Virus record (IMG/VR): IMGVR_UViG_3300032893_000113
Span: 1 to 43,102 of that record
DNA: 43,102 nt
Strand: one strand, 5' to 3'
DNA from: a virus
The translations under genes were made by a program, and so were the position numbers. Under the pieces are notes generated by a model that was not told the DNA's origin, did not search any database, and saw only the letters and a list, made by a program, of their open reading frames with translations. The stretch's first letter is position 1; each line of letters opens with the position of its first letter. Positions 19,285 to 43,102 of this stretch are shown here, in pieces.

Positions 19285-22200
19285 ATGGGGTTTCAGCATG
19301 GATCAAGTCTCGGTGATCTTGCTCGGCGCTTTCGTGGTTGCCTTGCTCATTGTGCTGGTTTGGCCGTCGCCGCCTCGTTACTGACTGCAGGCCAAGCATT
19401 TGCGCAGAACGTGCGCTACGATGCGCAATATCCTTCTATCGTTACCGGGCAATCGACGCCCTATCTGGTAGCGAATATCCCGCCCAATTCCCCCAAGCTT
19501 GCCGTTTGCACCGTTCCCGCGAATGGCGTGCCCTGCACCAACTATGCAACCACCTACAATTCCCAAGGCGTAGCCTGCCCAAATGGGGCGCAAGATACGC
19601 CCCAGCCTCAGCCAAGCGCCTGCCAGCCGACCGGGGATGCGCAGGGAAACATCGGGTTTTGGGCACCAGCCGGGAGCTACGATTACACCGTTTGCATTGG
19701 CACCAGCTGCTTTGGGCCTTACCGCGTCACGCTTGGCGGCTCGGGCGGATCAGGAATCGAGCTTCAGACCAATGGCACCAACAACGGCTCGCAAACCAAG
19801 CTCAATCTGACAGGCACAGGAACCACGACCGTCACCGACAATGGCTCGGGAACGGTCACAATCAATTCCACGGGAACGGGCGGCGGCGGAATAACGGGCA
19901 CCTTAACGAACAATTTTGTACCTAAAGCGACCTCTACAGGTACAAACGGAACGGTTGGGAACAGTTCGGTACAGGAAATAGCCTCAACTAATAGTGTTCC
20001 GGTCATAAATGTGCCCCGATTGGAGCAAGTTAGGTACACAGATAACTTCATTTGGTCTCAGAATCCAAATTCTCCTTCCTCGATTGCCCCCGGATCAAAC
20101 GTCATCACGATTGTCTGCCCATATGGGATTGATGCCACGCTGCCCGATTATTGGATCGATATTGGTACTACGGGAACGGCTGAGGCGGCTCCGGTCACGG
20201 CCACATCCTGCACGGCGGCCACGGTTGGCAGTTCCGGCACAATTACGGTGACAGCACGCAATACGCACGCAGCCGGGTACTCGGTCGGAACGGCCTCGAA
20301 TGGCGCTCAAGAGGCCATTAACGACGGCTTGGTTACATCCTCCAGCGCCCATAATGTAAAGGTCGTGCTGCCATGCGGCGCGAATGGCGCGACAATCGCA
20401 TGGGATGCGCCTGTAGAAACGCATGGGAATCATGTGTTTATCGAAGGCGGCGGCTGTGCGCGAATCCTGCAAACGCATCGGCAAGCTGGGCTGATTCTCG
20501 GCAATCGCACTGCCGGCGGAACATTCTTCTTTAATACCGTTCATGCCTTGCAGTTTCAGCCCGGATACGCGGGCACCGCGCCCCAAGTCAATCTCATCAC
20601 CAGCATGTCGCGTACGGGCTGCCCTTCGGCCTGTGTCGCAACCTTCAATTTCGGCAGTTCGCACGACTTGCTGGTAGGCGATTGGGTGATCGTTGGCGGA
20701 AATCTGAATGACAATACCTTCGCTGGTGACTACCAAATTGCGACCGTGCCCAGCGGAACGCAGGTCACAGCCACGCCGCTCTCGAATGCTGCAAACAATC
20801 CTGCCACGGTTTACGCAGGCGGCTACGTCATTGAGCAGTACATCCCCATTTTGGACAACCTGACCATTGAGGGCTACAACGATCAAGTTTCGCTGGTTTC
20901 AACGTCGGGCCTGACGCGGCCTTACGTTTCTGGCGAAGAAGTCTTGGCCGATCAGTCAGCCAACATCCTCCAATTCTCAAACTCAGGTTCCGGGGCCGTA
21001 TTCATGACCCCAACCGATGAATTTCAGCCCAAAATGATCTTTTCTCCCGGTCCAAACAGCCCCAGCGGGGCCGTGGCATTCATTTATGGGGCGAATATGT
21101 CGATGCAGAACACGGGTGACTGTATCGACTGGCAATCCGGCGATGATCTATTCATCACCGATGGCGTTTGTCAGGGATTCGTCAAGAATGGCATCCGTTT
21201 CAGTCAGCGAAGGGGAGGATTCGGAGCTTTTTCCTCCAAAGGCTTGCACTATGAGGGCAGTTTTGGGGGCGTAACGCAGGGAATGACCGCTACCGGGTAC
21301 GCAGGGCTGCTTGATGTGGGCGGAACAAGCGAAGTGGCAAGCGGCGAAAACTCTGCCCCCTATGGTGGGATGCCGCTTTATGCCACGGTCGGGAATGCCT
21401 TGCTCAACTGGTTTTATTACGTGCAGCCGATTGCGAGCACTTCTGACCCAATGTGCTCGTCGCAGCCGCCTGATGGCACAACCGGAGTCACCAATTTGCA
21501 GCGCTGCGCCCTGAATCTTGGTACCGGGCCAGTCTTGTTTGCAGGCTGGGCGCAGGTCGATTCCTCAAGTGGCGGCACGGTGCCTGTGACCTTCAATGCC
21601 ATCCCCGGCGCGACTTCATACAAACTGCTTCGCACGAATGGCCCGACGTCAGGAAACTTCGAAACCGCGCCCTATGGCACAGGTAATTATCTGATTGCCA
21701 CGGTCAACCCGCTAAGTTCCTGCACAGACGCGATTTGCACAGTCAGCGATTCGGTCGGCCTGACGCCTTCGTCTTACACCGTTCCCACCTATGGGCTGCA
21801 CAGCTATTACCCTTACCTGGCGGCGTGGCCCGGAGCGGTGGTCATTTCGAACAATTCGGATGCGGGCGGCACTGGCTCGGCTTCGGTTCCGAACGGCTCA
21901 TATTTTGGCCCGTACAACCAAGGCGGCAACAATGCGCCGATCATAACCACGACGCTGCCCAGCCAAGACGCGGTAATCCTGAACAATCCGATTACCGGGG
22001 CGGTAGTCGGAGCAAGCAGCCCATTGCAAGGCTCGCCATTTGCGTGGCGCGGCGGCGGCTTCACTTCCTCAGGGAATCAGGCATTACCTGGCTGGGCCAC
22101 CCTGGTGCCGGCCAAAAACATGCTGGTGGGCGATGGCGGAACTCTCACCAACCTGAAAGGCTTATTCAATTTCGGCACAACCCTCAGCCCGACCGCTCCC

Positions 22201-22581
22201 TTTGACCTCATCACGTTTTACGATGCCGCGTATGCCAAAACGCTGGCAACTTACGGCCACAGACCCTCAAACGATGCTGGCGACTGCGCTATCGGTATGG
22301 ATGTCACGCAGGCAGGCTTAAGCATTCGCTGCAATACGTCCATCGGCTTCTATGTGAATCACGTGAATGACGGCTCAAACTGGAAGGCCCAAGTCAATGC
22401 AAACGGGATTCAGACCAAGCCGGGGGCGTTTTCCACGCTGGCAACGTGCAATTCTGGCTTGGAAGGGGCGCGAGCTGCGGTAACGGACTCGACTACGGCC
22501 ACGTTTGGGGCAACGATCAGCGGAAGCGGATCAAATCATGTACCTGCCTACTGCAATGGCACAAATTGGGTGGTGCAGTAA
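19285..22581 (+). CDS. Large secreted-type beta-helix (tailspike-like) protein
   Basis: About 1,098 residues from ATG 19285 (TTG 19273 would add four). The N-terminus has RRFRG, a hydrophobic stretch and an AFA|Q site at residues 40/41, a Sec-type signal. Residues about 45-200 are Ser/Thr/Gly-rich linker. From about residue 330 the GAQEAINDG motif and GNHVFIEGGG-type turns introduce a pectate-lyase-like right-handed beta-helix that extends to about 600 (for example DNLTIEGYNDQVSLVS). The C-terminus ends CNGTNWVVQ, close to the DGTNWW motif of two other proteins here. It looks like a glycan-binding or depolymerase tailspike, yet carries an export signal. It sits apart from the other tail genes, directly before the terminase. 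Confidence 0.7.
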   Translation: MGFQHGSSLGDLARRFRGCLAHCAGLAVAASLLTAGQAFAQNVRYDAQYPSIVTGQSTPYLVANIPPNSPKLAVCTVPANGVPCTNYATTYNSQGVACPNGAQDTPQPQPSACQPTGDAQGNIGFWAPAGSYDYTVCIGTSCFGPYRVTLGGSGGSGIELQTNGTNNGSQTKLNLTGTGTTTVTDNGSGTVTINSTGTGGGGITGTLTNNFVPKATSTGTNGTVGNSSVQEIASTNSVPVINVPRLEQVRYTDNFIWSQNPNSPSSIAPGSNVITIVCPYGIDATLPDYWIDIGTTGTAEAAPVTATSCTAATVGSSGTITVTARNTHAAGYSVGTASNGAQEAINDGLVTSSSAHNVKVVLPCGANGATIAWDAPVETHGNHVFIEGGGCARILQTHRQAGLILGNRTAGGTFFFNTVHALQFQPGYAGTAPQVNLITSMSRTGCPSACVATFNFGSSHDLLVGDWVIVGGNLNDNTFAGDYQIATVPSGTQVTATPLSNAANNPATVYAGGYVIEQYIPILDNLTIEGYNDQVSLVSTSGLTRPYVSGEEVLADQSANILQFSNSGSGAVFMTPTDEFQPKMIFSPGPNSPSGAVAFIYGANMSMQNTGDCIDWQSGDDLFITDGVCQGFVKNGIRFSQRRGGFGAFSSKGLHYEGSFGGVTQGMTATGYAGLLDVGGTSEVASGENSAPYGGMPLYATVGNALLNWFYYVQPIASTSDPMCSSQPPDGTTGVTNLQRCALNLGTGPVLFAGWAQVDSSSGGTVPVTFNAIPGATSYKLLRTNGPTSGNFETAPYGTGNYLIATVNPLSSCTDAICTVSDSVGLTPSSYTVPTYGLHSYYPYLAAWPGAVVISNNSDAGGTGSASVPNGSYFGPYNQGGNNAPIITTTLPSQDAVILNNPITGAVVGASSPLQGSPFAWRGGGFTSSGNQALPGWATLVPAKNMLVGDGGTLTNLKGLFNFGTTLSPTAPFDLITFYDAAYAKTLATYGHRPSNDAGDCAIGMDVTQAGLSIRCNTSIGFYVNHVNDGSNWKAQVNANGIQTKPGAFSTLATCNSGLEGARAAVTDSTTATFGATISGSGSNHVPAYCNGTNWVVQ
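19298..19384 (+). CDS. Possible 28-residue membrane peptide nested in the next gene
   Basis: In the +1 frame relative to the large protein: MDQVSVILLGAFVVALLIVL then VWPSPPRY, one clean hydrophobic helix with a short tail. GGGG lies 8 bases before its ATG, which is better than anything before the large gene's own start. Hydrophobic sequence in an alternative frame of a signal peptide can arise by chance, so this is only a candidate. Confidence 0.3.
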   Translation: MDQVSVILLGAFVVALLIVLVWPSPPRY

Positions 22582-22931
22582 TGCCACGCGGCGGGGCTAG
22601 GCCGGGAGCGGGGCGCAAAAAGAAGCCCACGCCTGAAGTGGTGCAGGTTCGCCAGAAAGATCATGCAGCCCAGCTTCTAGCGGCTCTGAACCGACCAGCC
22701 AGCGAGAAAGACAGCTACGAAGTGCAGAAATTTCGACTGATTGACGACGCTGGCGTGACCGAATCGAGCAACCTGCGCAAATGGCTCTATGACAAGCGCG
22801 ACGGATTGCCTGTTCGCACCGTGAACCATTTGCACGATAAACCCTTGGAAATGAACGTCAATTTTACCCTCAGCGAAAAAATGAGGGCCGCAATGGAGAA
22901 AGCAGAGAAGCGTGTCAGCGAACGCAGTTGA
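22581..22931 (+). CDS. Terminase small subunit candidate
   Basis: A 116-residue protein beginning MPRGGARPGAGRKKKPTPEV, the basic N-terminal signature seen in many small terminase subunits, followed by a helical, charged body. Its ATG overlaps the previous stop (TAATG) and its end overlaps the large terminase by 20 bases. Small terminases bind the packaging-initiation site and recruit the large subunit; assignment rests on the N-terminal motif and position. Confidence 0.7.
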   Translation: MPRGGARPGAGRKKKPTPEVVQVRQKDHAAQLLAALNRPASEKDSYEVQKFRLIDDAGVTESSNLRKWLYDKRDGLPVRTVNHLHDKPLEMNVNFTLSEKMRAAMEKAEKRVSERS

Positions 22932-24411
22932 TTACGAACAGGCATTGGTAGATCGCCTGTACGACTTTCGGCACGATCCGCTGGGCGCGGTGCTCTATGG
23001 CTTTCCTTGGGGCGAAGGCGAACTCCGCGATTACAGAGCGCCTTGGGCATGGCAGGAAGAATTGCTGCGCGATGTTGGAGCGCACCTGCAAAACCCGGAA
23101 ACCCGCTTCAAACCCGGTCGGTTTGCTCGCAGTTCCGGGCACGGCATTGGCAAATCTGCGCTGGTTGCTCAACTGATCTGGTGGGGCATGAGCACGGCAA
23201 AAGACTGCCGCATTATCGTCACCGCAAACACGAAGAATCAGTTAGATACCAAGACTCAGCCCGAGGCCGCGAAATGGTTTCGCATGGCAATAAATGCCGA
23301 CTGGTTTGAAGTGAACGTGGCTTCGATCAAGGTGAGAGATGCCTCCGCAGATCGCGGCTGGCGTGCCGATTTCATCCCGTGGTCGGAAGATAACCCGCAA
23401 GCTTTCGCAGGAGCGCACAACGCAGGCAAGCGGCTGATGATCTTTTGCGACGAAGCCAGCGAAATCGCAGACATCATTTTCGAAGTCATCAATGGCGCAT
23501 TGACCGACGCGAATACCGAAATCCTGTTCTTTCAGTTTGGAAACCCGACCAGGCGGCAAGGTCACTTCTATGAGAGTGTTTTCGGTGCGTTTCGGCACCG
23601 TTGGAGCGGAAAAGCGATTGATTCGCGTACCGTGGAAGGCTCAAACAAGGTCGAAATTGCTCAATGGGTGGAAGATTATGGGGAAGATTCCGATTTTGTG
23701 CGCGTTCGCGTGCGCGGATTACCCCCAAAGAGCGAGAGTGCGCAATTTATCGACAATGAACTGATTGAAGCGGCGCAGAAAAGGGTTGTGCGTACCCTGC
23801 CAGATGACGCACTGGTTGCGGGCGTGGATTTTGCATGGGGTGGGTCGGATGACAACATCATCAGGTTTCGGAAAGGTGCGGACGCTCGAAGCATTCCACC
23901 AATCAAGATTAAAGGTGAGTTCACCCGCGAGGCTGCCGTCATGGTGGGCAAGCTCTCCGATGTCCTTACCCGCAGCTACGGTGGGGAAAAGGTCGCTATG
24001 CTGTTTTTCGACTCCGCTGGGATCGCTGCCCCGGTGGAAGCGCGGCTTCGCGCTCTTGGGCATAAAAATATTATGGTGGTTAACTTCGGCGCGGACTCTC
24101 CCGACCACCATTACGCATATTTCCGTGACTGTCTCTGGGGAAGAATGAAGGAATGGCTTGCCTATGGCGCAATCGACAAGGATCGCGGATTAGCCGAGGA
24201 CCTCGCCAAGCCCATTCTGGTGGATGACCCAAGGCAGCGCGTCAAACTTGAGCCGAAGCCTGTGATGAAGCGCCGTTTGGCGAAGTTGGGCCTCGATTCA
24301 AGCTCGCCTGACGACGGTGATGCACTCGCGTTGACGTTTGCCATGCCCGTTTTGCCGCCGAAGAAAAAGGCGCGAACTTCAAGCCCTGCCAGTTATGGAG
24401 CGTGGTCGTGA
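22912..24411 (+). CDS. terL: Terminase large subunit
   Basis: A 499-residue packaging motor and nuclease. The Walker A loop is SSGHGIGKSAL with Lys81; Walker B is RLMIFCDEAS with Asp180-Glu181; a coupling motif FGNPT follows at about 209. The RNase-H-like nuclease domain shows GVDFAWGGSDD (Asp306), LFFDSAG (Asp367) and a final DDGDALAL acidic cluster. GTG at 22912 is the start and overlaps the small subunit. It hydrolyses ATP to pump DNA into the procapsid and cuts the concatemer. Headful versus site-specific cutting cannot be told from sequence, though P22-type relatives use headful packaging. Confidence 0.9.
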   Translation: MSANAVDYEQALVDRLYDFRHDPLGAVLYGFPWGEGELRDYRAPWAWQEELLRDVGAHLQNPETRFKPGRFARSSGHGIGKSALVAQLIWWGMSTAKDCRIIVTANTKNQLDTKTQPEAAKWFRMAINADWFEVNVASIKVRDASADRGWRADFIPWSEDNPQAFAGAHNAGKRLMIFCDEASEIADIIFEVINGALTDANTEILFFQFGNPTRRQGHFYESVFGAFRHRWSGKAIDSRTVEGSNKVEIAQWVEDYGEDSDFVRVRVRGLPPKSESAQFIDNELIEAAQKRVVRTLPDDALVAGVDFAWGGSDDNIIRFRKGADARSIPPIKIKGEFTREAAVMVGKLSDVLTRSYGGEKVAMLFFDSAGIAAPVEARLRALGHKNIMVVNFGADSPDHHYAYFRDCLWGRMKEWLAYGAIDKDRGLAEDLAKPILVDDPRQRVKLEPKPVMKRRLAKLGLDSSSPDDGDALALTFAMPVLPPKKKARTSSPASYGAWS

Positions 24412-25265: not shown

Positions 25266-25267
25266 CC

Positions 25268-25756
25268 GTGACTGTCTCAATCAAAACCAAGCTTGACCAT
25301 GAGCTAAAGCGCAAAGGCTTTGGCGGCTTGGATGACCCGCGCCTGATTCAGCAGATCGCCTTCTGTGTCCGCGATCACGTCCATTTGCGGCAAATCCTTG
25401 TCACCGTCGTGCCTGAGAAGCGCACGCAAGCCTATGAAGCGATGCGGCCCTATCTGCGCTTTGAAGCGAAGCCGTTGGACGTGTATATCGCGGAAGCTGC
25501 CGACCTTGCCGCCCGAAAAGAGCAGGATCAGACCAAGATTGATGTCATTGCGGAGAAGGCAATTGCTCGAGCCGAGCGCGAATGGCAATCGAATGGGAAG
25601 CGCCTGATTCTGGTTTGCGTGAAATGCACGCGCCAAGAGGATTTCCCTGCATCCGAGCGCTTCATTGCGGCTGGTGACGCCTACCGCGAAGGCTGGCGCA
25701 AGGATGATGGCAAGGTTTATTGCAAGACGTGTGCCCCAAAAATCGTTATTGAGTAA
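25268..25756 (+). CDS. Hypothetical protein upstream of portal
   Basis: A 162-residue protein with GTG start 2 bases after the previous stop. The body is helical and charged; the C-terminus has LVCVKCTRQEDF and YCKTCAPK, two CxxC pairs suggesting a zinc ribbon. It ends coupled to the portal (TAATG). Function unknown. Confidence 0.6.
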   Translation: MTVSIKTKLDHELKRKGFGGLDDPRLIQQIAFCVRDHVHLRQILVTVVPEKRTQAYEAMRPYLRFEAKPLDVYIAEAADLAARKEQDQTKIDVIAEKAIARAEREWQSNGKRLILVCVKCTRQEDFPASERFIAAGDAYREGWRKDDGKVYCKTCAPKIVIE

Positions 25757-27993
25757 TGTCCGCTCCAACTCCTAAAGAAATCAGGGATCGCTTTGCCGAT
25801 TACCTTTCGGAATGGAAACCCATCCGAGAGGAAGGCCAAGAGGATATGCGCTTCGTCGCTGGCGATCCTTGGTCGCCCAACGACCGAAAAGCCCGTGAAG
25901 ATGCCTCGCGCCCGGTTATCTCGCTTGACGAAATCAACCAATACTTAAATCAGGCGATCAACAACGTTAGGCAGAATAAGCGCGGCATTCAGGTCACGCC
26001 CACAGGCGAAGGCGCTAACGATAAAGACGCCAATCACCGCGAAAACATTATTCGTGGCATCGAATATCGCTCCAAAGGGCAAACCGTTTACATCACCGCC
26101 TTCGAGAATGCGATTTCACGCTCTTATGGCTTTACAGGAATCACGAAAAAGTACATCAATGAACGCTCTTTCGATCAGGAATTGCTGCTTCGCCGCTTCC
26201 CCAATCCTGATTGCGTCCTGCCATGCCCGGATTTCAAGGAAGCCGATGGCTCGGACATGGAAGATTGCTTTGTCACCGACACGCTGCGCAAGGATGACTT
26301 CAAAAAGAAGTATCCGAAAGCTTCAAGTTCCGTCAGTTTCACGGGCGATGAAGGTGACCAGCAAATCAGCCTTTGGATTCAGGACAAAACCGTACAGGTA
26401 GCCGAATACTGGTATGTCGATAAGACCGAGGGACAAATCTTCCTCATTGATGGCCCAGACGGAAACCCGATTGTGGTGGAGAAAGTGGGAAAAGGCGAAC
26501 ACGTCATCGCCACGCGGAAAACGACTTTCAAAAAGGTAAACCAACTCATCACGAATGGCTTGGACATCCTTGATGAGATTCCGTGGCAAGGCTCGCGTGT
26601 TCCCATCTGCCCCTGTTTCGGCAAGGAAATCTGGGTGGATGAAGGCGGCGGCCCACGACGCAAGCTGATTTCAATGGTTAGGCTGGCGCGTGATCCGCAG
26701 ATGTTGCTTGCCTACCTCGCTACACAGGAATGCGAAGAGGCTGGCATGACGCCCAAAGCGCCATTTGTCGGCGCAAAAGGCCAGTTTGAAAGCGATCAAG
26801 AGGCTTGGGAACTGCTCAACAAAGTACCGCGAGCTTACGTGCAATACGACGTAGTAGTTGATGCCGCAACGAATACGCCATTACCTGCGCCCACACGCCC
26901 AGCCTTCGAGCCGAACTTTCAGGCATATGAAATTGCGAAAGATTCTGCTAGGCGCTCAATTCAGGCTGCAATGGGGATTTCGCCGCTTCCGACCGCTGCG
27001 CAGCGAGACTCCGAGAAATCAGGCGTAGCCCTTGAAAAGATTCAGGATCAGGAAAACATCGGCACGTTCCACTTTACCGACAATTTCGACATGATGCTCC
27101 AAAACATCGGCTGGCAGATCAATGAACTCCTTGGCCCGACGCTCGACACGGCGCGAACCGTGCCCGTTGCCAAAGCGGATGGTTCGTTCGGCACGCTGAG
27201 AGTCAATGACAAGCCCTATGTCGTGAGCAATCCTGAAAAAGATCATCTGATGCTGCTTGATCCGGAAACCGAAGAGGAGCCGGGAGAGTACGACGTCACA
27301 GTTTCGACAGGCCCAAGCTATCAGTCCCAGCGCGAGCAAGCCGCCGAATTTGCCGACTTCCTCATCGAAAACGCGCCGCAAATGGGCATCCCGCAGGAAG
27401 TCATGGTGAAACTGGTAGCGCTGGCAATCAAGCTGAAAGACATCGGGCCGCTGGGCGACGAAATGGTTGACTTGCTCACCCCGCCTGACCCGAACGACCT
27501 GCCGCCGCAAGCGCAAGCCATGATTGCCCAATTGCAAGGCCAGATTCAGCAATTGACGCAGGAAAACCAAGCTCTGCATCTCGAACGGGCCGGCAAGGTT
27601 CTCGAACAGCAAACCAAGCAGTCGATTGCGAAATTGCAAGAGGCGACAAAGCTCATTGTGGCCGAAATGCAGGCATCGAAAGACGCCGACAAAGCGCACT
27701 TCGAGCAGGAAATGTCGCGTCTTGGATTCGTGCAGGAACAAACCAGCGCCGCCCACGATGCCGCGCATGAAACCGCGATTACGCTACTGGAGCAGCAACA
27801 CGAACAGCAAATGGCGGCCCAGCAACAAGCGCATGAGCGCACGGTATTAGCGCAGCAAGGCGCACAGGATTCGTTTGCTCAAGGCAATGAGCAGCAAGCC
27901 GCGCAGCAAGCGCAGGCTTCCGACCAAGTTCACCAATCGGTGATGGCTGACAAAGCGGCCAAGGCCGCGAAAAAGGAGAAGCCTAAGAAATGA
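25756..27993 (+). CDS. Portal protein, P22 gp1-like
   Basis: A 745-residue protein, close to the 725 residues of P22 gp1. The opening RDRFADYLSEWKPIREEGQE, DMRFVAGDPWSPNDRKARED and SRPVISLDEINQYLNQAINN matches the P22-type portal pattern, in which early residues form the wing. Residues about 575-730 are Gln/Ala-rich and predicted coiled coil, like the helical barrel of P22 portal, with a Lys-rich tail. Twelve subunits would form the DNA channel at one capsid vertex and dock the terminase. Starts by TAATG coupling. Confidence 0.87.
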   Translation: MSAPTPKEIRDRFADYLSEWKPIREEGQEDMRFVAGDPWSPNDRKAREDASRPVISLDEINQYLNQAINNVRQNKRGIQVTPTGEGANDKDANHRENIIRGIEYRSKGQTVYITAFENAISRSYGFTGITKKYINERSFDQELLLRRFPNPDCVLPCPDFKEADGSDMEDCFVTDTLRKDDFKKKYPKASSSVSFTGDEGDQQISLWIQDKTVQVAEYWYVDKTEGQIFLIDGPDGNPIVVEKVGKGEHVIATRKTTFKKVNQLITNGLDILDEIPWQGSRVPICPCFGKEIWVDEGGGPRRKLISMVRLARDPQMLLAYLATQECEEAGMTPKAPFVGAKGQFESDQEAWELLNKVPRAYVQYDVVVDAATNTPLPAPTRPAFEPNFQAYEIAKDSARRSIQAAMGISPLPTAAQRDSEKSGVALEKIQDQENIGTFHFTDNFDMMLQNIGWQINELLGPTLDTARTVPVAKADGSFGTLRVNDKPYVVSNPEKDHLMLLDPETEEEPGEYDVTVSTGPSYQSQREQAAEFADFLIENAPQMGIPQEVMVKLVALAIKLKDIGPLGDEMVDLLTPPDPNDLPPQAQAMIAQLQGQIQQLTQENQALHLERAGKVLEQQTKQSIAKLQEATKLIVAEMQASKDADKAHFEQEMSRLGFVQEQTSAAHDAAHETAITLLEQQHEQQMAAQQQAHERTVLAQQGAQDSFAQGNEQQAAQQAQASDQVHQSVMADKAAKAAKKEKPKK

Positions 27994-28979
27994 CGCCTTT
28001 AGAAACACCCGCCGTGACAAATCAGGACTCGGCCCCTGAATTGAAAATTCCGTCCGGTCGTGCCTATGACGAATGGCGCATGACTGGCGAACTGCCGTCA
28101 GAACCGGAAGCCCCGGCAGCCTCCGAACCCGAAACACCAGCAGAACCGCCGTCAGAGCAGTCCGCAGACTCGGCCCCTGCGGAAAAATCCGTCTCGCCCG
28201 CCGCCCCGGAAGCGGCCCCCACTGCACAGCGGGGAAAGAAAGATGCAGAAGCAAGAATCCGCGAACTGGTCGCAAGGGTTAAGGAACTTGAGGCACGGCA
28301 GTCAACCAGCGTAACGCCGACTTCGCAAGCGGCTCCGATTACTCCAAAACTACCGGAGAAATCGGCCCGACCACCAAAGCCTACCGTCAATGACCGCAAC
28401 CCAGATGGCTCACCGAAATACAAGGATTTGCAAGAATTTCTGGATGCCCGCGACGAATGGACAACCCAAGACGTTCTCGCCAAATCCGAAGAGGCTCTCT
28501 CCAAAAGAGAAGCCGACCGGAAAGCCAGCGAACGCGCCCAGACGGTGCAATCGAAACGGCAAGGCAATCTCGATCGAGGCTTAGCCAAACATCCCGATTG
28601 GGGGGAAAAAGTCGGCAAGATGCAGTTGCCCGACATTTTGGACGCCTTCACGCTGGAATCGGACGTTGGCGATGAGATTCTGTATCACTTCGCCGCAAAT
28701 CCTGCCGAATTTCAGCGCGTTTTCAGTATGCCAAGCGCGTTTCGCATCACCCGCGAACTCGGGAAGCTGGAAGATCAGTTTTCCGGGCAAGGTTCTGCCG
28801 AAAGATCATCTTCGCCCCCTGTGCGCAGAGTATCCGCCGCGCCGCCCCCGCCTCAAATTGTGGATGGGAAAGGCACGACTCCCGGTGATGACGTGGAATC
28901 GGCGCTTAATGATGACGATTTCGCCGCCTATGCAGCGCGGCAGAATCGCCGCGACGTGGAGCGCATGAAAAAGCGCTAA
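27990..28979 (+). CDS. Scaffolding protein
   Basis: A 329-residue protein placed exactly between portal and coat as P22 gp8 is. It is acidic and disordered at the N-terminus (Pro/Glu/Ala-rich to about residue 90), helical in the middle, and ends with a basic helix (ARQNRRDVERMKKR) like the coat-binding helix-turn-helix of P22 scaffold. No catalytic motif. It should direct procapsid assembly and leave before DNA entry. Coupled to the portal by ATGA. Confidence 0.75.
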   Translation: MTPLETPAVTNQDSAPELKIPSGRAYDEWRMTGELPSEPEAPAASEPETPAEPPSEQSADSAPAEKSVSPAAPEAAPTAQRGKKDAEARIRELVARVKELEARQSTSVTPTSQAAPITPKLPEKSARPPKPTVNDRNPDGSPKYKDLQEFLDARDEWTTQDVLAKSEEALSKREADRKASERAQTVQSKRQGNLDRGLAKHPDWGEKVGKMQLPDILDAFTLESDVGDEILYHFAANPAEFQRVFSMPSAFRITRELGKLEDQFSGQGSAERSSSPPVRRVSAAPPPPQIVDGKGTTPGDDVESALNDDDFAAYAARQNRRDVERMKKR

Positions 28980-28996
28980 GTCGCAAGGGATAGGAA

Positions 28997-34435: not shown

Positions 34436-34884
34436 TTGTCGAGGAAACACGCAATTTCCGATTGATCCGGCAAATTGCGACTCACCCAAAAGTCTTTCGA
34501 CAAATCTCAGATGACTTTTCCGACCGCGAAAAATGGCAGCCCAGCGAGAGCGAATTGGTGACCTACCTCATCGCCAAGCATGAAAACGTGCCTGTGGGCT
34601 TCATGGCGCTGATCCCGCGTAACGGGGCGACGGCAGAAATGCACTTCGCATTCCTGCCCGAAGCGTGGGGAAAAACGGCGGAAATCTGCTTTGCCCAGAT
34701 GCTTGCCTATGTATGGAGTCATACACCGTGGCGGCGGATCACGGGCGAGATTGCCCGGAAGAATCGGCTCGCCATCCGCTTTATTGTGAAAGCGGGCTGC
34801 AAAGTAATCGGCATCAATGAAAAGAGCTTACTGCGCGGAGGGGTTTTAGAAGATCAAGTCATTTTAGGGATTAGCAAACCATGA
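34432..34884 (+). CDS. GNAT-fold protein, position of P22 gp14
   Basis: A 150-residue protein with GTG start (GTGA overlap). VPVGFMALIPRNGATAEMHF, then WGKTAEICFAQMLAYVW and ARKNRLAIRFIVKAGCKVIG, follow the strand-helix order of the GNAT acetyltransferase fold, with the late conserved N..A...Y/F..K.GF segment. Phages of the P22 group carry a GNAT-like protein (DUF2824/gp14) here. No acetyltransferase activity is implied: the acetyl-CoA loop is not clear. An upstream open frame to 34171 only mirrors the neighbouring gene. Confidence 0.65.
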   Translation: MIVEETRNFRLIRQIATHPKVFRQISDDFSDREKWQPSESELVTYLIAKHENVPVGFMALIPRNGATAEMHFAFLPEAWGKTAEICFAQMLAYVWSHTPWRRITGEIARKNRLAIRFIVKAGCKVIGINEKSLLRGGVLEDQVILGISKP

Positions 34885-35690
34885 GCTTTGTATCCAGCAT
34901 TGTCGGCGGAATCCTTGGCGCGAATGCGGCAGGCGATGCCGCGAGCACCGAGTCGAAAGCGGCCCAGCAAGCCCAGCAGCTTGAACTGAAAAACCAGCAA
35001 GCGGCCCAAAACTTTCAGCAGGGCGTATGGTCGGGCACGCAGGGCAACGAGAACCCTTATCTCAATCTCGGGGCGCAGAATGCGCAAACCCTGCAATCGC
35101 TGACTTCGACTCCGGGCAAAGGGCTGCTGCAAGGTTATGGCTCATTTCAAGCGCCGACGCTCGCGCAAGCAGAGCAAACACCGGGATACCAATTTGCATT
35201 GCAGCAAGGAACGAGGGCAATTGATGAAAACGCGGCAGCCAACGGCACGCTCATGTCGGGCAACACGGGCACGGCGCTCCAGCAATACGGCCAAGGGCTT
35301 GCCCAAAACGCCTATCAGCAGACCTACAACAATGCCTTCCAGAACTATCAGACGAACTTCAACACGTTCAATCAGAACCAGCAAAACCAGTATGCGCGAC
35401 TGTTCGGAACCACGGGATTAGGCCAAGGAGCGGCCACGCAAACGGGCGCACTCGGTCAAAGCGCTGCCGGAACAATGGCAGGCATTGACCTCACTGGAGG
35501 CCAGCAGCAAGCGCAGCAAATCAACAACGCGGCGGCGGCACGAGCCTCGGGCATTCTCGGCCAAGCGAATGCCTATTCCAATATGGCGGGCGGGATTGCA
35601 GGCGGGTTGACCAGCGGACTCGGGAATCTCGACACGACAGGCGGCTCAAGCTGGCTTGAGCAACTTGGGAACTTTGCGGGGATGGCATAA
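34881..35690 (+). CDS. Ejection/internal virion protein (DNA transfer type)
   Basis: A 269-residue Gln/Ala/Asn-rich protein. A hydrophobic Gly-rich start (SFVSSIVGGILGANAAGDAA) leads into TPGYQFALQQGTRAIDENAA and GTALQQYGQGLAQNAYQQTY, the repeating pattern of podovirus internal proteins named DNA transfer protein; in P22 the corresponding slot is gp7. It is probably ejected with the DNA and forms part of a trans-envelope channel. ATGA coupling on the left, directly followed by the next gene. Confidence 0.72.
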   Translation: MSFVSSIVGGILGANAAGDAASTESKAAQQAQQLELKNQQAAQNFQQGVWSGTQGNENPYLNLGAQNAQTLQSLTSTPGKGLLQGYGSFQAPTLAQAEQTPGYQFALQQGTRAIDENAAANGTLMSGNTGTALQQYGQGLAQNAYQQTYNNAFQNYQTNFNTFNQNQQNQYARLFGTTGLGQGAATQTGALGQSAAGTMAGIDLTGGQQQAQQINNAAAARASGILGQANAYSNMAGGIAGGLTSGLGNLDTTGGSSWLEQLGNFAGMA

Positions 35691-37079
35691 ATGGGCACCA
35701 TACCAGCACCTAACATTGTTGGCGCGTCAGAAGCGATTTCGCAGAATCCTTTGCAGGAATATGCGCGAGCGGTGACGCTTCATGCGCAACAGCAAGCCGC
35801 CGCGCAAGATCAGCAATTACGGCAGCAACAAATTCAGCAAGGCCAGATCCAATTGCAGGATCAGCAAGCGGGATTAGCTGCGCTCAAGGAGTGGGATGGA
35901 AATGACCTATCTACATTGCCTGCCCTGATCCAAAAACACGGCGGCTCATTTAATGCGGTTATGGGAGCACGGCAAAGTGCGCTCGAATATCACACGAAAC
36001 TGTTAGGAATGAAAAAGGATGAACTCGCATTAGAGGACACAAAAAACAATGCGATTGCAGGTCATCTTGATTACGTTAAAGGTTTGGCACCAGCCGAGCA
36101 GCCACAAGGCTTTGAAAACGCCAAGAGCGATTTGATGAATCGCGGTTATATGTCGCCGCAAGAAGCGCAGGCGATGCAATATCCGGGGCCAGAGGGTCTG
36201 GATGGCCTCATAAAACTCCACCAGTCGCATACGCAGCAAACAGAAGATTTGCTGAAGAAAGGGCAAACACAGGAAGCTGTAGGCAGAGGCAAACAGGCAG
36301 AAACGCAGTCCGAAGCCGATCTGTGGAAGCCAGCCGGCGAAGGCACGCTGTACAACGTGAAAACCGGGCAACTGGTGCAAGGTGTTCTGCCGCCTGATCG
36401 AGCGCAGTTCGATGCGTATATCAAGCGCGGCGGCGATCCGGCTACCTATGCCGCATGGAAAGCCAAGCAGGAAGCCATTGCGACCGAGCCAGTCAAAACC
36501 CGCATTGCGGCTACTGAAGCCGCTACGAATGCAGCGATTCATGCCCAATACGACCGTGGCACCGATCCCGCTGTGCAGAATGTCTCGCCAAAGGATGTAG
36601 GCAAAGCGCGAGCCGAATATTCAAAAGCCGGACAAGAATTTGCTGCCGCGAATCAGGCAGCGCAAGGGATGCAGGATTTCATCGCGGAGGCCAAAGCTGG
36701 AAACAAGGAAGCCGTCAAAGTGGTTCCACTACAAGGCGCTTTGGAGATTACGACAGCACAGGGCGTACACCGCATCAATCGAACAGAAGTGGATCAATTG
36801 GCGGGTGCAGGCTCGCTCTATGACAAGTTGGCGGGCAAGGTCGGCCACGTTCTTACGGGTAAAGACATAGATGATTCCGTTCTGAATGACATGAAAGAGC
36901 TTGCGGGAACGGTGCAGCGCAATGCGCGAGGCTTGCACGAAAACAAAGTGAAGTCGATCAATCAAGCCTATGGCTCCGATTTTAAGCCGATGGATTTTGG
37001 CGGGGGAAACAGCGCACCGACACAGCCCGCCGCGACCTCGGGCGGCTTCAATTGGGCCGCCATGCCTGAGCACAAATGA
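35691..37079 (+). CDS. Ejection-type internal virion protein
   Basis: A 462-residue, largely helical protein rich in Gln, Ala and Lys, with long coiled-coil-prone stretches (about residues 30-65 and 295-340) and a Gly/Ser/Pro-rich C-terminus. It fills the P22 gp20 slot. Starts directly after the previous stop and ends in ATGA. Assigned by order and composition, not by a motif. Confidence 0.6.
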   Translation: MGTIPAPNIVGASEAISQNPLQEYARAVTLHAQQQAAAQDQQLRQQQIQQGQIQLQDQQAGLAALKEWDGNDLSTLPALIQKHGGSFNAVMGARQSALEYHTKLLGMKKDELALEDTKNNAIAGHLDYVKGLAPAEQPQGFENAKSDLMNRGYMSPQEAQAMQYPGPEGLDGLIKLHQSHTQQTEDLLKKGQTQEAVGRGKQAETQSEADLWKPAGEGTLYNVKTGQLVQGVLPPDRAQFDAYIKRGGDPATYAAWKAKQEAIATEPVKTRIAATEAATNAAIHAQYDRGTDPAVQNVSPKDVGKARAEYSKAGQEFAAANQAAQGMQDFIAEAKAGNKEAVKVVPLQGALEITTAQGVHRINRTEVDQLAGAGSLYDKLAGKVGHVLTGKDIDDSVLNDMKELAGTVQRNARGLHENKVKSINQAYGSDFKPMDFGGGNSAPTQPAATSGGFNWAAMPEHK

Positions 37080-38386
37080 GTAGCGGCAGCATTGTTCCGG
37101 TATTTGATCCACAGGGCACGCTCCGCGATGTGCCATTTGAGCACTTACGCGATGCCATAAACGCGGGCGGCAAGCCGGGGATTCGGATGCAGGCCCCGGA
37201 TGGCAAGGTGCGCTATGTTCCACCCGACTTGATGCAGGATGCCGTCAAAGCAGGCGGAAAAATGCTGCCCGTTCAAGATCAATCAGTGCCACATGAAGGC
37301 TTCTGGAGTGCTCTGGGATCGGATTTAAAGGGAATGGGCGAAGGACTGGTCCATTCAATTACCGATACCGACAGCCCAAGCATTTGGAGTCTTGAAGGAG
37401 CAAAGCAGGGCTTTCGGCAAGATGTCTCGAATTACCAGCGCGAGCGAGCCGCTGGGCACGGTCGGCTCTACAGCGGTGCGGCCACGGCAGCGAGCGACTT
37501 AGGCGTAAACGTGCCCGGTATGGAGCAAGCGGCCACGGAAGGCGATCCGGGCGCAGTGTTAGGCCATGCGGCAGCCGTTCCCGCTGCGATGGCCGGCACT
37601 TATGGAATTGGTGAGGCTGCCCCGGTCATCAAAGCCGCCGCTCCGCAAGTGTTAGAACATACGCCCGTGGTCGGCCCCAGCATTCGGCTCGCACGCAATT
37701 TAAACCGCGTGATTACAGCCGCCGCCGACGGTACAGAAGCGCCCAAAGGACCACCCACTACCGCAGACCTCCAAGCATGGTGGAAACAGCGCGGTGGAGT
37801 CCTTAAAAGCGAGCGTCCAAATGGGCCAATTCACGGCTCTCGGCCCGTACAGGCAGCAGAAGCGCCCACGCCTACCGAACCGCAAGGGATAGCGCAAAAC
37901 GCAGCCCCAGAGCCGCCACAGCAAGCAGAAACCGAGCCTCAGACGCCGGCATGGGCCAAATGGCCGCCCGAAGCCCCAAAAGTGGCGTTTCAGGATGTGC
38001 GCGACGACGCCGCGATCCAAGACGCCATGCAAAACGACCTCAACCGCCACGAAATGATTGGCCGAAAAGAGGCCCAGCGGCAATTCATCGCAGGCAATAC
38101 TACCGGGGAAACGAAAGGCTCGTTATCTCAAGCTTTCACGCAAAAACTGGATAAGGAAAGGCTGACACAGCAGCTTGCGGACATCTGGCAGCAGATTAAA
38201 GAATCGCAGCCGCCATACCAAGGCGATCTGACTAACAATCCTACGCCCGAGGAGTTGGCACAACCTCCGCGTCGATCACGATCACGCCCGAATCCCGCCG
38301 ATAACGAGGATTTGACCGACCTTTTAAAGCAGAGCGTAGCCCGCGCCAGAGCCGCAAAAGCCCAGAACAGGCCGCCCGGACCATGA
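37076..38386 (+). CDS. Ejection-type protein, P22 gp16 slot
   Basis: A 436-residue protein. Its N-terminal 70 residues contain two similar units (FEHLRDAINAGGKPGIRMQA and LMQDAVKAGGKMLPV), then a Gly/Ala-rich, mildly hydrophobic region (about 140-215) that could insert in membranes, then Pro/Glu-rich linker and a C-terminal charged helix. Composition and order fit a third ejection protein. Its 3' end overlaps the antisense membrane gene by about 146 bases. Confidence 0.6.
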   Translation: MSSGSIVPVFDPQGTLRDVPFEHLRDAINAGGKPGIRMQAPDGKVRYVPPDLMQDAVKAGGKMLPVQDQSVPHEGFWSALGSDLKGMGEGLVHSITDTDSPSIWSLEGAKQGFRQDVSNYQRERAAGHGRLYSGAATAASDLGVNVPGMEQAATEGDPGAVLGHAAAVPAAMAGTYGIGEAAPVIKAAAPQVLEHTPVVGPSIRLARNLNRVITAAADGTEAPKGPPTTADLQAWWKQRGGVLKSERPNGPIHGSRPVQAAEAPTPTEPQGIAQNAAPEPPQQAETEPQTPAWAKWPPEAPKVAFQDVRDDAAIQDAMQNDLNRHEMIGRKEAQRQFIAGNTTGETKGSLSQAFTQKLDKERLTQQLADIWQQIKESQPPYQGDLTNNPTPEELAQPPRRSRSRPNPADNEDLTDLLKQSVARARAAKAQNRPPGP

Positions 38387-38547: not shown

Positions 38548-40167
38548 ATGAAAAGCAAAAGGTTAGCTCTATTTCTCCTTCTGTTCGCCCCTTATATCTG
38601 GGCGCAGGTCCCTGTATCACTTGCCCCGGTGCCAAAGCTGCAATTTTTCTATCCGAATGGCGCACCGCTGGCCTATGGCTGCGTCTTTACCTACCAGTCA
38701 AACACGACCTCGCCACTTGCGACATACACCGATTACACCGGAAGCACCGTCAACTCGAATCCGGTCGTGCTTGATGGCGGCGGATTTGCTTCGATCTGGC
38801 TGCTTTCCGGGCAGGCTTACACGCTGGCAATCAAATCATCGGGCGGAACGAATTGCGCATCGGGATCGCAGCAGTACAGCGTGAATGGCATCGGCGGTTC
38901 AGGCTCGCAGGGCGTCGAAGCCGTGCCCTACAGCCCGACTCCGACCTTCACCGATGTAGCCGAAAACATGCTTTTCACCATCACGCTCACCGGGAATGCC
39001 TCGGCAACCCCGCTTACCGCCGTTGGCGTGATTCCACCGGGCTTGATTATTTTTCAGATCACCCAAGATTCAGTAGGGGGCAGAAGTTTTTCTTGGCCTG
39101 CGAACGTCGGCGGCGGCGCCGCAGTGAACCAGTCGGCCAATGCAGTGACCACACAGCAATTTTTTTGGGATGGCACCGAAGCCTACGCCCTTGGGCCAGC
39201 AACCATTGGCACATCAAGCGGACCCATCATTTCGGTGGGAGAGATTATCTCCTCGGGCGACATTATCAACACGGGCAATATGAGCGTCGGCGGGAATCTG
39301 GCCGTCACAGGGAGCGGAGTTTTTGGCACATCGCTCAAAGCCAATCCCTTCATTTCCGCAACCTCGAATCCTTCCTCAGCGGGAACAATCCGCCTTGCGA
39401 ATACTGACTCAATTCTCTGGCGCAACAATCCCAACGGCGCGAATTATGGCTTTATCCCGTCTGGTGATGCCTTCGACATAATGAATTTGAACTCGCCGGG
39501 CGGTTTAGACCTTACCGGAACAAATCAAATTCTGCGCTTTGGCGGGGAAGGCAATACCTTCCCGATGTTTAAGCGGGCCTCGCAAACCATTCTTACGCGA
39601 CTCGCAGACGATTCCGCCGACGCCAATATCAGCGCAGCCGAAGGCATTTTCTCGAATCACATCTCAGTTGATGGCGTCACTATTAACGCCTCTGCGTGTG
39701 CCTCGAATCAGGTTTTGCAGGTCACTGGCAGCGGGCTGATTACTTGCTCGAATGCGCCATCCATTCAGGCTGCTTCCACTACGATCTTGGGCACCAACGT
39801 GGGCATGTCCAACTCGCCTACAGTGATCCTCACCAAGAGCGTCACCATGCCCACTACGGGCTGCCCATGCCGCGCTCTGGTTTCCTACTCGCAGAACTTT
39901 TCCACTTCGAACGCGCAGCAGACCGTGGTTTATGTCAATGACGGCACCAACAACTTTGCGACTGGGCAAACGCTAGTCACGGGCGCGGCTTCGAATTATT
40001 CCGTTTCTGCGTCCTCGTTCTCCACGGGAACTTACAACAATGGCGCGACGATCACATTCTCGCTTGATGGCGTTTTGAGCACCAGCACGGCTACGGCAAT
40101 CCAAGGCAACGGCGCGGCTTCTGGGCAAAACTCTTGGATGAATATAGCGATTTTCACCAGCAACTAA
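38548..40167 (+). CDS. Tail fibre/tailspike-like protein with signal peptide
   Basis: A 539-residue protein. After MKSKRLALFLLLFAPYIWAQ (IWA|Q site) comes LQFFYPNGAPLAYGCVFTYQ, SPLATYTDYTGSTVNSNPVV and LDGGGFASIWLLSGQAYTLA. This is the classic phage tailspike/fibre N-terminal pattern (FxNGxPLAxGxVxTY...NPVVLDxxGxxxIW) that joins fibres to the virion. The rest is Ser/Gly/Thr-rich beta sequence with SVGGNLAVTGSGVF-type repeats. The export signal in front of a virion-attachment domain is unexpected. Confidence 0.72.
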   Translation: MKSKRLALFLLLFAPYIWAQVPVSLAPVPKLQFFYPNGAPLAYGCVFTYQSNTTSPLATYTDYTGSTVNSNPVVLDGGGFASIWLLSGQAYTLAIKSSGGTNCASGSQQYSVNGIGGSGSQGVEAVPYSPTPTFTDVAENMLFTITLTGNASATPLTAVGVIPPGLIIFQITQDSVGGRSFSWPANVGGGAAVNQSANAVTTQQFFWDGTEAYALGPATIGTSSGPIISVGEIISSGDIINTGNMSVGGNLAVTGSGVFGTSLKANPFISATSNPSSAGTIRLANTDSILWRNNPNGANYGFIPSGDAFDIMNLNSPGGLDLTGTNQILRFGGEGNTFPMFKRASQTILTRLADDSADANISAAEGIFSNHISVDGVTINASACASNQVLQVTGSGLITCSNAPSIQAASTTILGTNVGMSNSPTVILTKSVTMPTTGCPCRALVSYSQNFSTSNAQQTVVYVNDGTNNFATGQTLVTGAASNYSVSASSFSTGTYNNGATITFSLDGVLSTSTATAIQGNGAASGQNSWMNIAIFTSN

Positions 40168-40179: not shown

Positions 40180-42222
40180 ATGCAAAAACTCTCCACATGG
40201 CTCTGGCTCTGCTTCCTGTTCGGCAGCATCGCCAATGCGCAAGTCACCGGAAAAATCACCAGCACGCAATGCGTCAGCATTCAGGGCGGCCCGAACGTCT
40301 CAACCATTGGTATCCAAGTCACCGGAACTTGGTCGGGAACATTGCAGCCGCAAGTTTCGATTCAAGGGCAGGCACCAACCAATACATCGGTTTCGGCAGC
40401 CGGCTCGACTTCGACGCAGAACACCATCACCGCCAATGGAGTGTTTACCGTAGGGGTTGCAGGGCAGGATTACTTCCAACTCTGTGGCAATACGGTTGGC
40501 TCGGGAACTGCCATTGTTTACCTCAATTCCTCGACAGCAGCCGTTAAGAATGGTGGCGGGGGCGGTGGGGGCGGCGGATCAGTTACCGCAGTGACGGCAA
40601 GCTCGCCCGTTGCCAGTTCCGGGGGCACCGCGCCGAATATCACTTTGGGCACGCTGGTAGCTGGGCAAAACGGCCTTGCGGCATCAGCGACGACCGACAC
40701 TACAAACGCCTCGAATATCACCAGCGGCACGCTTCCCCATGCGCAGCTTCCGACGCTGCTTTCTGGCGACATTCCCAACAATGCCGCGAATACGACGGGC
40801 ACGTCGGGCGGCATTTCGACCAACTACAACGCCCAACAAGTCCTCATTGGCCCGCCAGCGGGAGGCTCGGCAACTCCACCCGTACCGGGCTTGTTGGCGG
40901 GAGGCTATCTCTGGAGTTGCGTAGATGCACAATCGGGCACCGCTTATACGGTTTCGACAGCTGACCAGAGTTGCATCATCCCATTCACGCCCAGCGCATC
41001 GGCAACCATCACGGTACCGAATCCAGCCGCCTCGCCTGCTTTCGGCTGCCCTGCCACAAATGCCTGCTTTACCTTCACCATCACCAATGAAGGCACTTAT
41101 CCGGTCGCGGTGACGCCAATTTCCCCGGCAACCATTGACGGCTTAACGACGATTTCGCTGAACCAGTATCAAAGCCTGCAAGCCTTCTCCGATGGAACAA
41201 ACTGGTGGACCCAACGCGGTGCAGGCGTGAACTTTACCGCTTCGCTGCTCACGAACAACGTTCCGGTCGCTACCAGTACGACTTCGCTCGGCCCTTCGCT
41301 CATTACTGATAACGGCCTTCAATTCGGCTACACGGGCACAAGCGGGGGAATCTTCTCCGGGCCGCTCATCGTTCAGGGAAATATGACGATTGGCGGCGCA
41401 CTCTATACGGCAGGCTCATTTTCGCTCAATTCGCCTATTCCGACAGGCGCGTGCGGCACTTCCGCGACGGGCTATTCCATTCTGTGCATCAACTCCAGCG
41501 GCCAGCTTTCTATTTCCTCCAATGGTGGAGCGCAGACACCTTTTTCGACAGGCGGTGTCAGTTCGATTTCGACTACCAGCCCGATCGTTGGCGGCCCGAT
41601 TACGACCAGCGGAACGGTAAGCTGCCCAAGTTGCGTGACGGCTTCATCTCCGGGCGCGGGAATTGCTCACTTTGCAGGCTCTACGCAGGCCGTTACCAGT
41701 AGCGCCGTCGTCGGCAGCGACATGGCGAACAATACGGTCACGGCAACGCAAATCGCCAATAACGCCATCGGAAACGCGCAATTGGCTGTCGTGCAAACCC
41801 GACGTACCTGCACTATCGTGATTGGAGCCGACAACGGTTCAGCCCTCATCAATGGCGATCTAAACCAGAAGCATCAATGTTTTTTTCCCGCTGCCGCAAC
41901 CATCGTTGAAATTGACATGGAAGGGAACTCAGCTGCCGCTTCATCGCCCACGGCTGTATCCGTCAACAAGTTTCACACCAGCGGATCGGTGACAACCAAC
42001 CTTTTCGGTTCAACCACCACGCAGGCCATTACCGCATCGACAGGCGCAAATACCTGCTCAAACGCAGCCGGATCGGGCACGGGCTTGGATGGAACCACCA
42101 CTTGCTCACTCGCAATCTCAACCACCGCAGTCGCGGCAGGCGATTGGATTGACCTCTCAAATGGTGCTGCTGATGGAACGATGCAGCGCGTTTCGGTAGC
42201 AATTACCTACACCATCAACTGA
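40180..42222 (+). CDS. Large tail-fibre-like protein with signal peptide
   Basis: A 680-residue protein: MQKLSTWLWLCFLFGSIANA then Q (ANA|Q), an N-terminal beta domain, a nine-Gly linker near residue 125, then repeated fibre modules such as NASNITSGTLPHAQLPTLLS and SVTAVTASSPVASSGG, and a DGTNWW motif in the middle. These NxxxxTSGTLPxARLP repeats are typical of phage tail fibres. AAAGGA lies upstream. Receptor or surface-glycan binding is inferred. Confidence 0.68.
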   Translation: MQKLSTWLWLCFLFGSIANAQVTGKITSTQCVSIQGGPNVSTIGIQVTGTWSGTLQPQVSIQGQAPTNTSVSAAGSTSTQNTITANGVFTVGVAGQDYFQLCGNTVGSGTAIVYLNSSTAAVKNGGGGGGGGGSVTAVTASSPVASSGGTAPNITLGTLVAGQNGLAASATTDTTNASNITSGTLPHAQLPTLLSGDIPNNAANTTGTSGGISTNYNAQQVLIGPPAGGSATPPVPGLLAGGYLWSCVDAQSGTAYTVSTADQSCIIPFTPSASATITVPNPAASPAFGCPATNACFTFTITNEGTYPVAVTPISPATIDGLTTISLNQYQSLQAFSDGTNWWTQRGAGVNFTASLLTNNVPVATSTTSLGPSLITDNGLQFGYTGTSGGIFSGPLIVQGNMTIGGALYTAGSFSLNSPIPTGACGTSATGYSILCINSSGQLSISSNGGAQTPFSTGGVSSISTTSPIVGGPITTSGTVSCPSCVTASSPGAGIAHFAGSTQAVTSSAVVGSDMANNTVTATQIANNAIGNAQLAVVQTRRTCTIVIGADNGSALINGDLNQKHQCFFPAAATIVEIDMEGNSAAASSPTAVSVNKFHTSGSVTTNLFGSTTTQAITASTGANTCSNAAGSGTGLDGTTTCSLAISTTAVAAGDWIDLSNGAADGTMQRVSVAITYTIN

Positions 42223-42230: not shown

Positions 42231-42953
42231 ATGCGAAAAGTTCTGCTGCCTATTTTTCTGCTGGTGTCTGCGCTGGCGTCGGCAACCGTCTCGATCGTGC
42301 AGGATTCCGGCACAAAATCATGTGCGGCGGGAACGACTTGCACGCAAACCAATATTGTCGGAAGCAATATCACCGCTGGCAATCTTGTGATTTTCATGCA
42401 GGGGCAAACGAGTGCAAGCTCAAACAATACTGTCACAGCGGTTTCGGGCGGCTCTGACAACTTCGTTCACTGCTCGCAGTGTCGGGCAAGTGCCAATGGC
42501 GTCGAATCTGACATCTGGTATGTGATTGGTTCGGCTGGCGGCTATCGCAGCATCACGATTACGAATAGTTCGGGAAGCGTGGCAAGCAGCGTGGCGCTCA
42601 TGGAAATTGCCGCCTCGGGTGCGGGAACCTTCACCATTGATGATAATGAAAATGCGGCTTACGGAACGGCCACGACCACGCCGACCGCTACCAACTTCAC
42701 TCTGACCGGATCAAACGACTTCCTTTTGCAGCTTGCGAAAGGTTCCGGCGCGTCTACCATGACCGCGATCACCCAGAGTTATACCATCTCTGTGAACAGC
42801 ACCACGACGCTCGCCTATGCGACCAAGCTCAACTCTATTACCGCAACTGGGCCGCAATGGACAGGAACGAGCGTTAAGTACGGCTTGAGCAGCATCGCCT
42901 TTGCCGAGCACGCCTCGGGAAACAAACCGCGTCATAAAGTCACCCAAAATTAA
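42231..42953 (+). CDS. Small fibre-type secreted protein
   Basis: A 240-residue protein starting MRKVLLPIFLLVSALASATV, a Sec-type signal whose most likely cut is ASA|T rather than before Gln. The mature part is a single beta-rich, jelly-roll-like domain (SIVQDSGTKSCAAGTTCTQT, VGSNITAGNLVIFMQG) with a Lys/Arg tail. It follows the large fibre gene by 8 bases. Could be a surface adhesin-like or fibre-tip protein; not identified. Confidence 0.6.
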   Translation: MRKVLLPIFLLVSALASATVSIVQDSGTKSCAAGTTCTQTNIVGSNITAGNLVIFMQGQTSASSNNTVTAVSGGSDNFVHCSQCRASANGVESDIWYVIGSAGGYRSITITNSSGSVASSVALMEIAASGAGTFTIDDNENAAYGTATTTPTATNFTLTGSNDFLLQLAKGSGASTMTAITQSYTISVNSTTTLAYATKLNSITATGPQWTGTSVKYGLSSIAFAEHASGNKPRHKVTQN

Positions 42954-42954
42954 A

Positions 42955-43102
42955 ATGAAACTGCGCTATCTTGCTGTACTGGCTTTTGTCGGCAGTTTGT
43001 TTGCCCAAAGTGTCGGCTTGTCACCGGGAAGCATCGGCTTTCCCACCACCACGCTTAATGTCACTGCCTCCGGTCAAGTCGAAACGCTCACTAATAACGA
43101 TT
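42955..43102 (+). CDS. 5' end of an ASH-repeat protein, probably the start of the giant gene at the left edge
   Basis: MKLRYLAVLAFVGSLFAQ is a signal peptide with LFA|Q site, followed by SVGLSPGSIGFPTTTLNVTA and SGQVETLTNND, which is the opening of an ASH/choice-of-anchor-D repeat. The frame is open at the window end. The left edge begins with the same kind of repeat opening, so both are probably parts of one gene. Joining the ends directly gives TAG; repeat alignment suggests about 70 residues are missing. Confidence 0.7.
   Translation, partial: MKLRYLAVLAFVGSLFAQSVGLSPGSIGFPTTTLNVTASGQVETLTNND

Follow-up and report, generated by a model that had tools for sequence, protein, structure and literature searches.

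The window analysed here is the whole of a 43,102-base IMG/VR virus record (IMGVR_UViG_3300032893_000113), which encodes a P22-like soil podovirus with P22-type coat, portal, terminase, scaffold, head-closure and ejection genes. The late genes form a rightward block, and a leftward block of small genes lies at about 7.4–17.5 kb. Within the late block, Sec signal peptides are predicted on the genes in spike position and on the gene behind the coat gene, and none is found on the coat, portal, scaffold, head-completion and ejection genes (Table 1; rightward genes are named by their first base). Every recognisable spike candidate of the genome bears such a signal; none without one can be recognised in the window. 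For the P22-type portal and the scaffold, head-closure and ejection genes, the family matches are phrog_156 (1.5e-75), phrog_8865 (3.8e-22), phrog_578 (3.8e-94) and phrog_598 (1.2e-18).

The signals were called by a home-made scorer, which uses n-region charge, an uncharged hydrophobic core and the −3/−1 rule and which detects TolB, CpoB, ModA, Ecotin and OmpC of Escherichia coli. Six of the 18 late genes score 8.0–11.6 and the remaining 12 score 5.3 or less; of 6400 interior windows taken from the late-gene proteins, not one reaches a score of 8. On related contigs, the neighbourhood of signal-bearing spikes has called signals in 44 of 154 genes, that of signal-less spikes in 1 of 301. The letters of the signals vary among relatives, hydrophobicity and glutamine (Gln) as the first mature residue (+1) are retained, and the mature parts align, as expected for signal peptides. 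The features of signal peptidase I substrates are present as well, namely n-, h- and c-regions and a small residue at −1, and these are conserved in relatives.

The original prediction, made from the sequence alone, listed eight Sec signals, almost all cleaved between Ala and Gln. Seven of them are convincing by the scorer and by their relatives, with the cleavage sites AFA|Q (19285), SFG|Q (30244), IWA|Q (38548), ANA|Q (40180), ASA|T (42231), LFA|Q (42955) and AFA|Q (7414–8487, minus strand). The cleavage pattern holds too, because six of the seven accepted genes have Gln at +1, one of the six as Gly|Gln. The eighth, 33963, is rejected as a signal gene because it has no conserved counterpart and relatives of the next gene (34103–34435) start without a signal. 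Another open reading frame (ORF), 17526–18209, was called a signal gene by the script but is regarded as spurious, being antisense to the leftward block. The 7414–8487 gene adjoins lysis genes, has no family match and is a candidate exported non-virion protein. In one relative (G003), consecutive late genes at 23527–31083 bear Sec signals (L019:3527-11083).

Table 1 Features of the window discussed in the text
Position	Strand	Feature	Remarks
2..5800	+	1932-residue ORF, 5' end open	ASH/Cep192-type repeats
7414..8487	-	Signal-bearing protein, PAFA|Q	End of leftward block, outside late block; ATG at 8487 behind AGAGGAG
19285..19404	+	Long Sec signal ...AGQAFA|Q of large spike-like protein	
19405..19734	+	QNVRYD N-terminal domain, six conserved Cys	Signal in all 22 relatives found
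19735..22581	+	Remainder of large spike-like protein	
22912..24411	+	Terminase large subunit	No signal
25756..27993	+	Portal protein	phrog_156, 1.5e-75; no signal
27990..28979	+	Scaffolding protein	No signal
28997..30229	+	Coat protein, P22 type	Pfam P22_CoatProtein, 1.3e-26; no signal
30244..30303	+	Sec signal peptide MKKTLLTLSIVFGLALASFG|Q of post-coat gene	Cleavage placed before Gln; scorer puts site 3 residues earlier
30304..30954	+	Mature post-coat protein, two Cys pairs	Probable head decoration or head fibre
31368..33944	+	Head-completion genes	Adaptor-like 31368-32204; head closure Hc3 32490-33944; no signal
33963..34106	+	47-codon TTG ORF, signal-like start	Unconserved
34881..38386	+	Three genes in DNA-ejection position	First is phrog_598 'DNA ejection'; no signal; 0 Cys each
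38548..38604	+	Sec signal peptide MKSKRLALFLLLFAPYIWA|Q of spike gene	Scorer; relatives' matches begin at query residues 6-10, within signal
38605..38940	+	Tailspike head-binding domain, P22 type, with Cys45 and Cys103	Directly behind signal
38941..40167	+	Remainder of spike protein	
40180..40239	+	Sec signal MQKLSTWLWLCFLFGSIANA|Q	Signal in all relatives listed
40240..42222	+	Mature spike- or fibre-like protein, 14 Cys	
42231..42284	+	Sec signal MRKVLLPIFLLVSALASA|T	
42285..42953	+	Mature 222-residue protein, 4 Cys	
42955..43005	+	Sec signal MKLRYLAVLAFVGSLFA|Q	Gene runs off window end

Spike and post-coat proteins with and without signals

The spike gene 38548 encodes a P22-type tailspike head-binding domain. 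A profile built from residues 20–131 of its product and 29 relatives matches the solved head-binding domains of tailspikes (7eeq, 4e-9; 9vyg, 5e-7). Consistently, an AlphaFold2 model confined to the N-terminal domain (pLDDT, predicted local distance difference test, 81) matches the fold of the Pam1, Pan3, P22 and Sf6 spikes (2vky, 9jg6, 7sg7). The virion-attachment pattern that had been proposed to lie behind this signal is thus borne out by profile and fold. Because both match, the part exposed by cleavage would be the domain that docks P22-type spikes onto the particle. Relatives of 38548 are encoded on five of six further contigs found via the portal.

Signal-less versions of this domain are present in cultured phages of Xanthomonas, Vibrio, Rhodoferax and others, where the annotated proteins start near the domain start. 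Such spikes allow a natural comparison, for which 60 distinct IMG/VR sequences, 22 signal-bearing and 38 signal-less, were collected. The alignment column of window residue 20, the +1 position, holds Gln in 21 of the 22 signal-bearing spikes; among the 38 signal-less spikes, the initiator Met occupies it in 24, and the protein begins one or two residues further on in the remaining 14. The cysteine (Cys) pair C45 and C103 is present in 20/22 signal-bearing versus 0/38 signal-less spikes (Fisher 5.5e-14, uncorrected for kinship), and the same invariant residues of the head-binding domain are found in both forms. The 38548 product has the N-terminal head-binding domain of a P22-type tailspike but, unlike such a spike, is predicted to be made with an export signal.

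The family of the post-coat gene 30244 likewise comprises signal-bearing and signal-less relatives, both of which lie behind a P22-type coat gene. Of 19 post-coat loci, 17 stand directly behind the coat gene, one has no coat match and one has an intervening ORF. The signal-bearing forms have two Cys pairs, and in the close signal-less relatives L056 and L057 these positions hold Ala, Val, Leu, Ile or Thr. On a tree of the coat proteins, the signal state of the post-coat gene changes at least three times, as forced by well-supported branches, and the Cys residues follow the signal state in all three independent pairs. The structure model of the post-coat product is weak (pLDDT 55), and no PDB match with E ≤ 0.001 was found. 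The product is a probable head decoration or head fibre protein.

The N-terminal domain of 19285 is preceded by a signal in 22 of 22 IMG/VR relatives, most with Gln as the first mature residue. Mature signal-bearing proteins contain 2.1 Cys per 100 residues versus 1.2 in non-signal proteins. Among the signal-bearing proteins that have Cys, the number is even in 21 and odd in 4, versus 49 even and 80 odd among non-signal proteins, with some near-duplicate sequences in these counts. Because Cys residues are gained or lost in pairs together with the signal, they suggest disulfide bonds, which in turn suggest an oxidising compartment.

Glutamine behind the signal and the host

The original prediction tied Gln at +1 to the Q rule, which is published for Bacteroidetes, and a link to a Gln preference among the secreted proteins of the host is supported. 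Gln at +1 in most substrates, the mark of the rule, is found in both the spikes (21/22) and the accepted window genes (6/7). The Q-rule paper covers Bacteroidetes, Chlorobi, Spirochaetes, Chlamydiae and Cyanobacteria, with no mention of Acidobacteria (PMC5837995). The same tendency is seen here in plasmid genes of Acidobacteriota: across five stretches of 50 kb each from plasmids of Granulicella and Acidisarcina, a small, plasmid-borne sample, Gln stands exactly at +1 in 19 of 39 predicted signals, compared with 1 of 20 in E. coli, and a small residue followed by Gln lies within four residues of the site in 27 of the 39. No earlier report of a preference for Gln behind the signal in secreted proteins of Acidobacteriota was found. 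Most simply, Gln at +1 in the phage proteins would be a match to the preference of the host's own secreted proteins.

The original prediction had also pointed to other phages of Acidobacteriota as a place to look for the same pattern, which was found in Tunturi 1 and not in Tunturi 3 and 4, whose structural genes are without predicted signals in the first 50 kb (see below). Tunturi 1 is a podovirus isolated on Tunturiibacter psychrotolerans, a member of Acidobacteriota, and the text of the paper describing the Tunturi phages does not mention signal peptides (PMC11924767). Signals are predicted on its gp12, gp13, gp14 (annotated 'tail spike'), gp16 and gp17. The late proteins of the window have no detectable tblastn similarity to Tunturi 1 in the 50 kb examined.

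The plasmid preference for Gln and the pattern in Tunturi 1 favour an Acidobacteriota host without proving one, and a Bacteroidota host would fit the Gln as well. In a prophage search for the host, the 19285 domain had no match in genome contigs and the portal matched only one alphaproteobacterial metagenome-assembled genome. Among 399 genomes from the phylum of that genome, nine head-binding loci were found, eight without and one with a signal. The one with a signal lies inside a P22-like prophage in a Pseudomonadota genome (G415:C1:213000-245000), which encodes there a head-binding spike with an ANA|A signal and a Cys pair. A second signal-bearing gene lies nearby in this prophage (SASA|Q, 8 Cys). 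ASH repeats, which are also found in the window, occur on plasmids of Variovorax, Methylibium, Granulicella and Gemmatirosa and are not decisive for the host.

Proposed assembly in two compartments and its alternatives

In the usual view, every part of a tailed-phage virion is built in the cytoplasm. Completed particles of P22-like phages can still receive spikes and decoration proteins, and the proteins that lack signals here are those that build and fill the particles. Because no spike candidate without a signal is recognisable and the parts that can be added late carry the signals, the exported set probably includes the receptor-binding proteins of the virion. Export of the signal-bearing proteins, as originally predicted, together with disulfide formation is well supported by the conserved signals and the switch in Cys residues, and the exported parts likely join the virion afterwards.

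Judged from these sequence patterns, a virion built in two compartments is the probable arrangement. The head, portal, head-completion and ejection proteins would be synthesised and assembled in the cytoplasm. The spike and fibre proteins and one head-associated protein would be synthesised with ordinary Sec signals, which would be cut before Gln, like those of many secreted host proteins. These products would fold and form their disulfides outside the cytoplasm, and their head-binding domains would dock onto finished particles once the inner membrane opens at lysis. We also lean, with slightly more reserve, towards the wider proposal that such Sec-secreted, disulfide-bonded and N-terminally processed late virion parts are joined to cytoplasmic particles at lysis by a route that arose repeatedly in unrelated podoviruses, the signal and the Cys residues being gained and lost together.

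Several points weigh against assembly in two compartments. The P22 spike functions without a signal. The compared sequences are related to one another, and a tree-based sign test on the three post-coat pairs gives p = 0.25, three pairs being too few alone for significance. The scorer also calls some E. coli membrane proteins signals, so that by itself it cannot separate a signal from an anchor. The podovirus Tunturi 3 and the siphovirus Tunturi 4, both on Tunturiibacter, have no structural-gene signals in their first 50 kb; the pattern is thus not universal among phages of that host. How the spikes outside the membrane would meet the particles before dilution is not explained by the sequence.

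The original prediction had offered two outcomes, exported adhesins that are not part of the virion and membrane anchors. Both fit less well than cleaved, disulfide-bonded parts that keep a virion-docking domain and join the particle late. Proteins that are exported and cleaved, yet never enter the virion, might serve as free adhesins, polysaccharide-degrading enzymes or surface proteins that mask receptors or block superinfection. Precedents exist in WceF of Pantoea stewartii, a host-encoded protein with a tailspike-like fold and a Tat export signal (PMC7949094), and in five Q-rule signal proteins of unknown function in Porphyromonas gingivalis phages (PMC10367356), and the gene at 7414–8487, which is not in the late block, could well encode such a protein. 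However, the head-binding domain keeps its invariant residues whether or not a signal precedes it, both post-coat forms keep their place behind the coat gene, and the window would be left without a recognisable spike, which makes this explanation unlikely for the late proteins. Alternatively, uncleaved hydrophobic N-termini could anchor the spikes to the inner membrane, where assembly would take place. Hydrophobic segments are indeed present, and signal-anchor-release endolysins are a phage precedent (PMC6116005). Retention as an anchor is nevertheless quite improbable because the conserved A-x-A|Q sites fit the +1 preference of Acidobacteriota secreted proteins, +1 Gln aligns with the Met of signal-less homologs, and Cys pairs accompany the signal. 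Misannotation, with true starts downstream or chance hydrophobic stretches, can be dismissed almost entirely. Little speaks for it: 33963 is an example, and GTG or TTG codons, without an obvious ribosome-binding site, occur close to the cleavage sites in 19285, 38548, 42231 and 42955. Against it, 30244 and 40180 lack a second start codon close to where the mature protein would begin, the signals are conserved across diverged contigs, and none of the interior windows scores as high.

Among known systems, filamentous phages have coat proteins with cleaved Sec signals as virion proteins, but their virion is assembled in the membrane and extruded, whereas the window encodes a tailed, P22-like phage whose head genes are cytoplasmic. 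The P22-type tailspikes P22 gp9, Sf6 gp14, Pam1 and Pan3 share the head-binding domain and a gene position behind the ejection genes; the Sec signal before the domain and the Cys pair inside it are absent from the signal-less homologs seen. The P. gingivalis phage proteins are likewise phage products with Gln-exposing signals (PMC10367356), but the signals here precede a tailspike head-binding domain and a post-coat protein, and the host phylum probably differs. Secreted and signal-anchor-release endolysins such as fOg44 Lys44 are also exported by host Sec during infection (PMC6116005), but these are lysis enzymes and not virion proteins. WceF resembles the spikes in joining a tailspike-like protein to an export signal; it is, however, a bacterial gene product with a Tat signal that acts on exopolysaccharide (PMC7949094). 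No earlier report of exported tailed-phage spikes was found in a search of open-access papers that deal with signal peptides and phage virions, which left out subscription papers and preprints. Export of phage proteins by Sec is already known for endolysins and the Porphyromonas phage Q-rule proteins; what would be new is a maturation route for P22-type spikes.

If spikes do acquire their fold and disulfides outside the cytoplasm and join the particle at lysis, the assembly model of tailed phages changes. Such a route would account for the cysteine-rich spikes of some soil phages, and phage spikes expressed as reagents would need an oxidising compartment. The absence of signal peptides was once taken as support for a phage origin of variable proteins (PMC6199706). 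With spikes exported, a signal peptide on a phage adhesin would not imply that the protein is host-derived or non-virion. Tunturi 1 and its culturable host make the assembly route directly testable.

Other features of the window

The protein that starts at 42955 probably continues in the ORF at 2–5800, which would be its C-terminal part, and the window appears to break inside that gene. No closing repeat was found at the window ends, and the two end ORFs are out of frame across them; circular closure is therefore not assumed. Part of an ASH-type repeat may be missing from the assembly at this point (42955–43102 and 2–5800). The window also encodes an endolysin and a short tyrosine recombinase. 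Between the head-closure and ejection genes, 34103–34884 holds a conserved 110-residue gene and a probable GNAT-type acetyltransferase. A 12-base tandem repeat at 11039–11152, inside the gene 10729–11187 on the minus strand, encodes a Gly-Asp-Tyr repeat.

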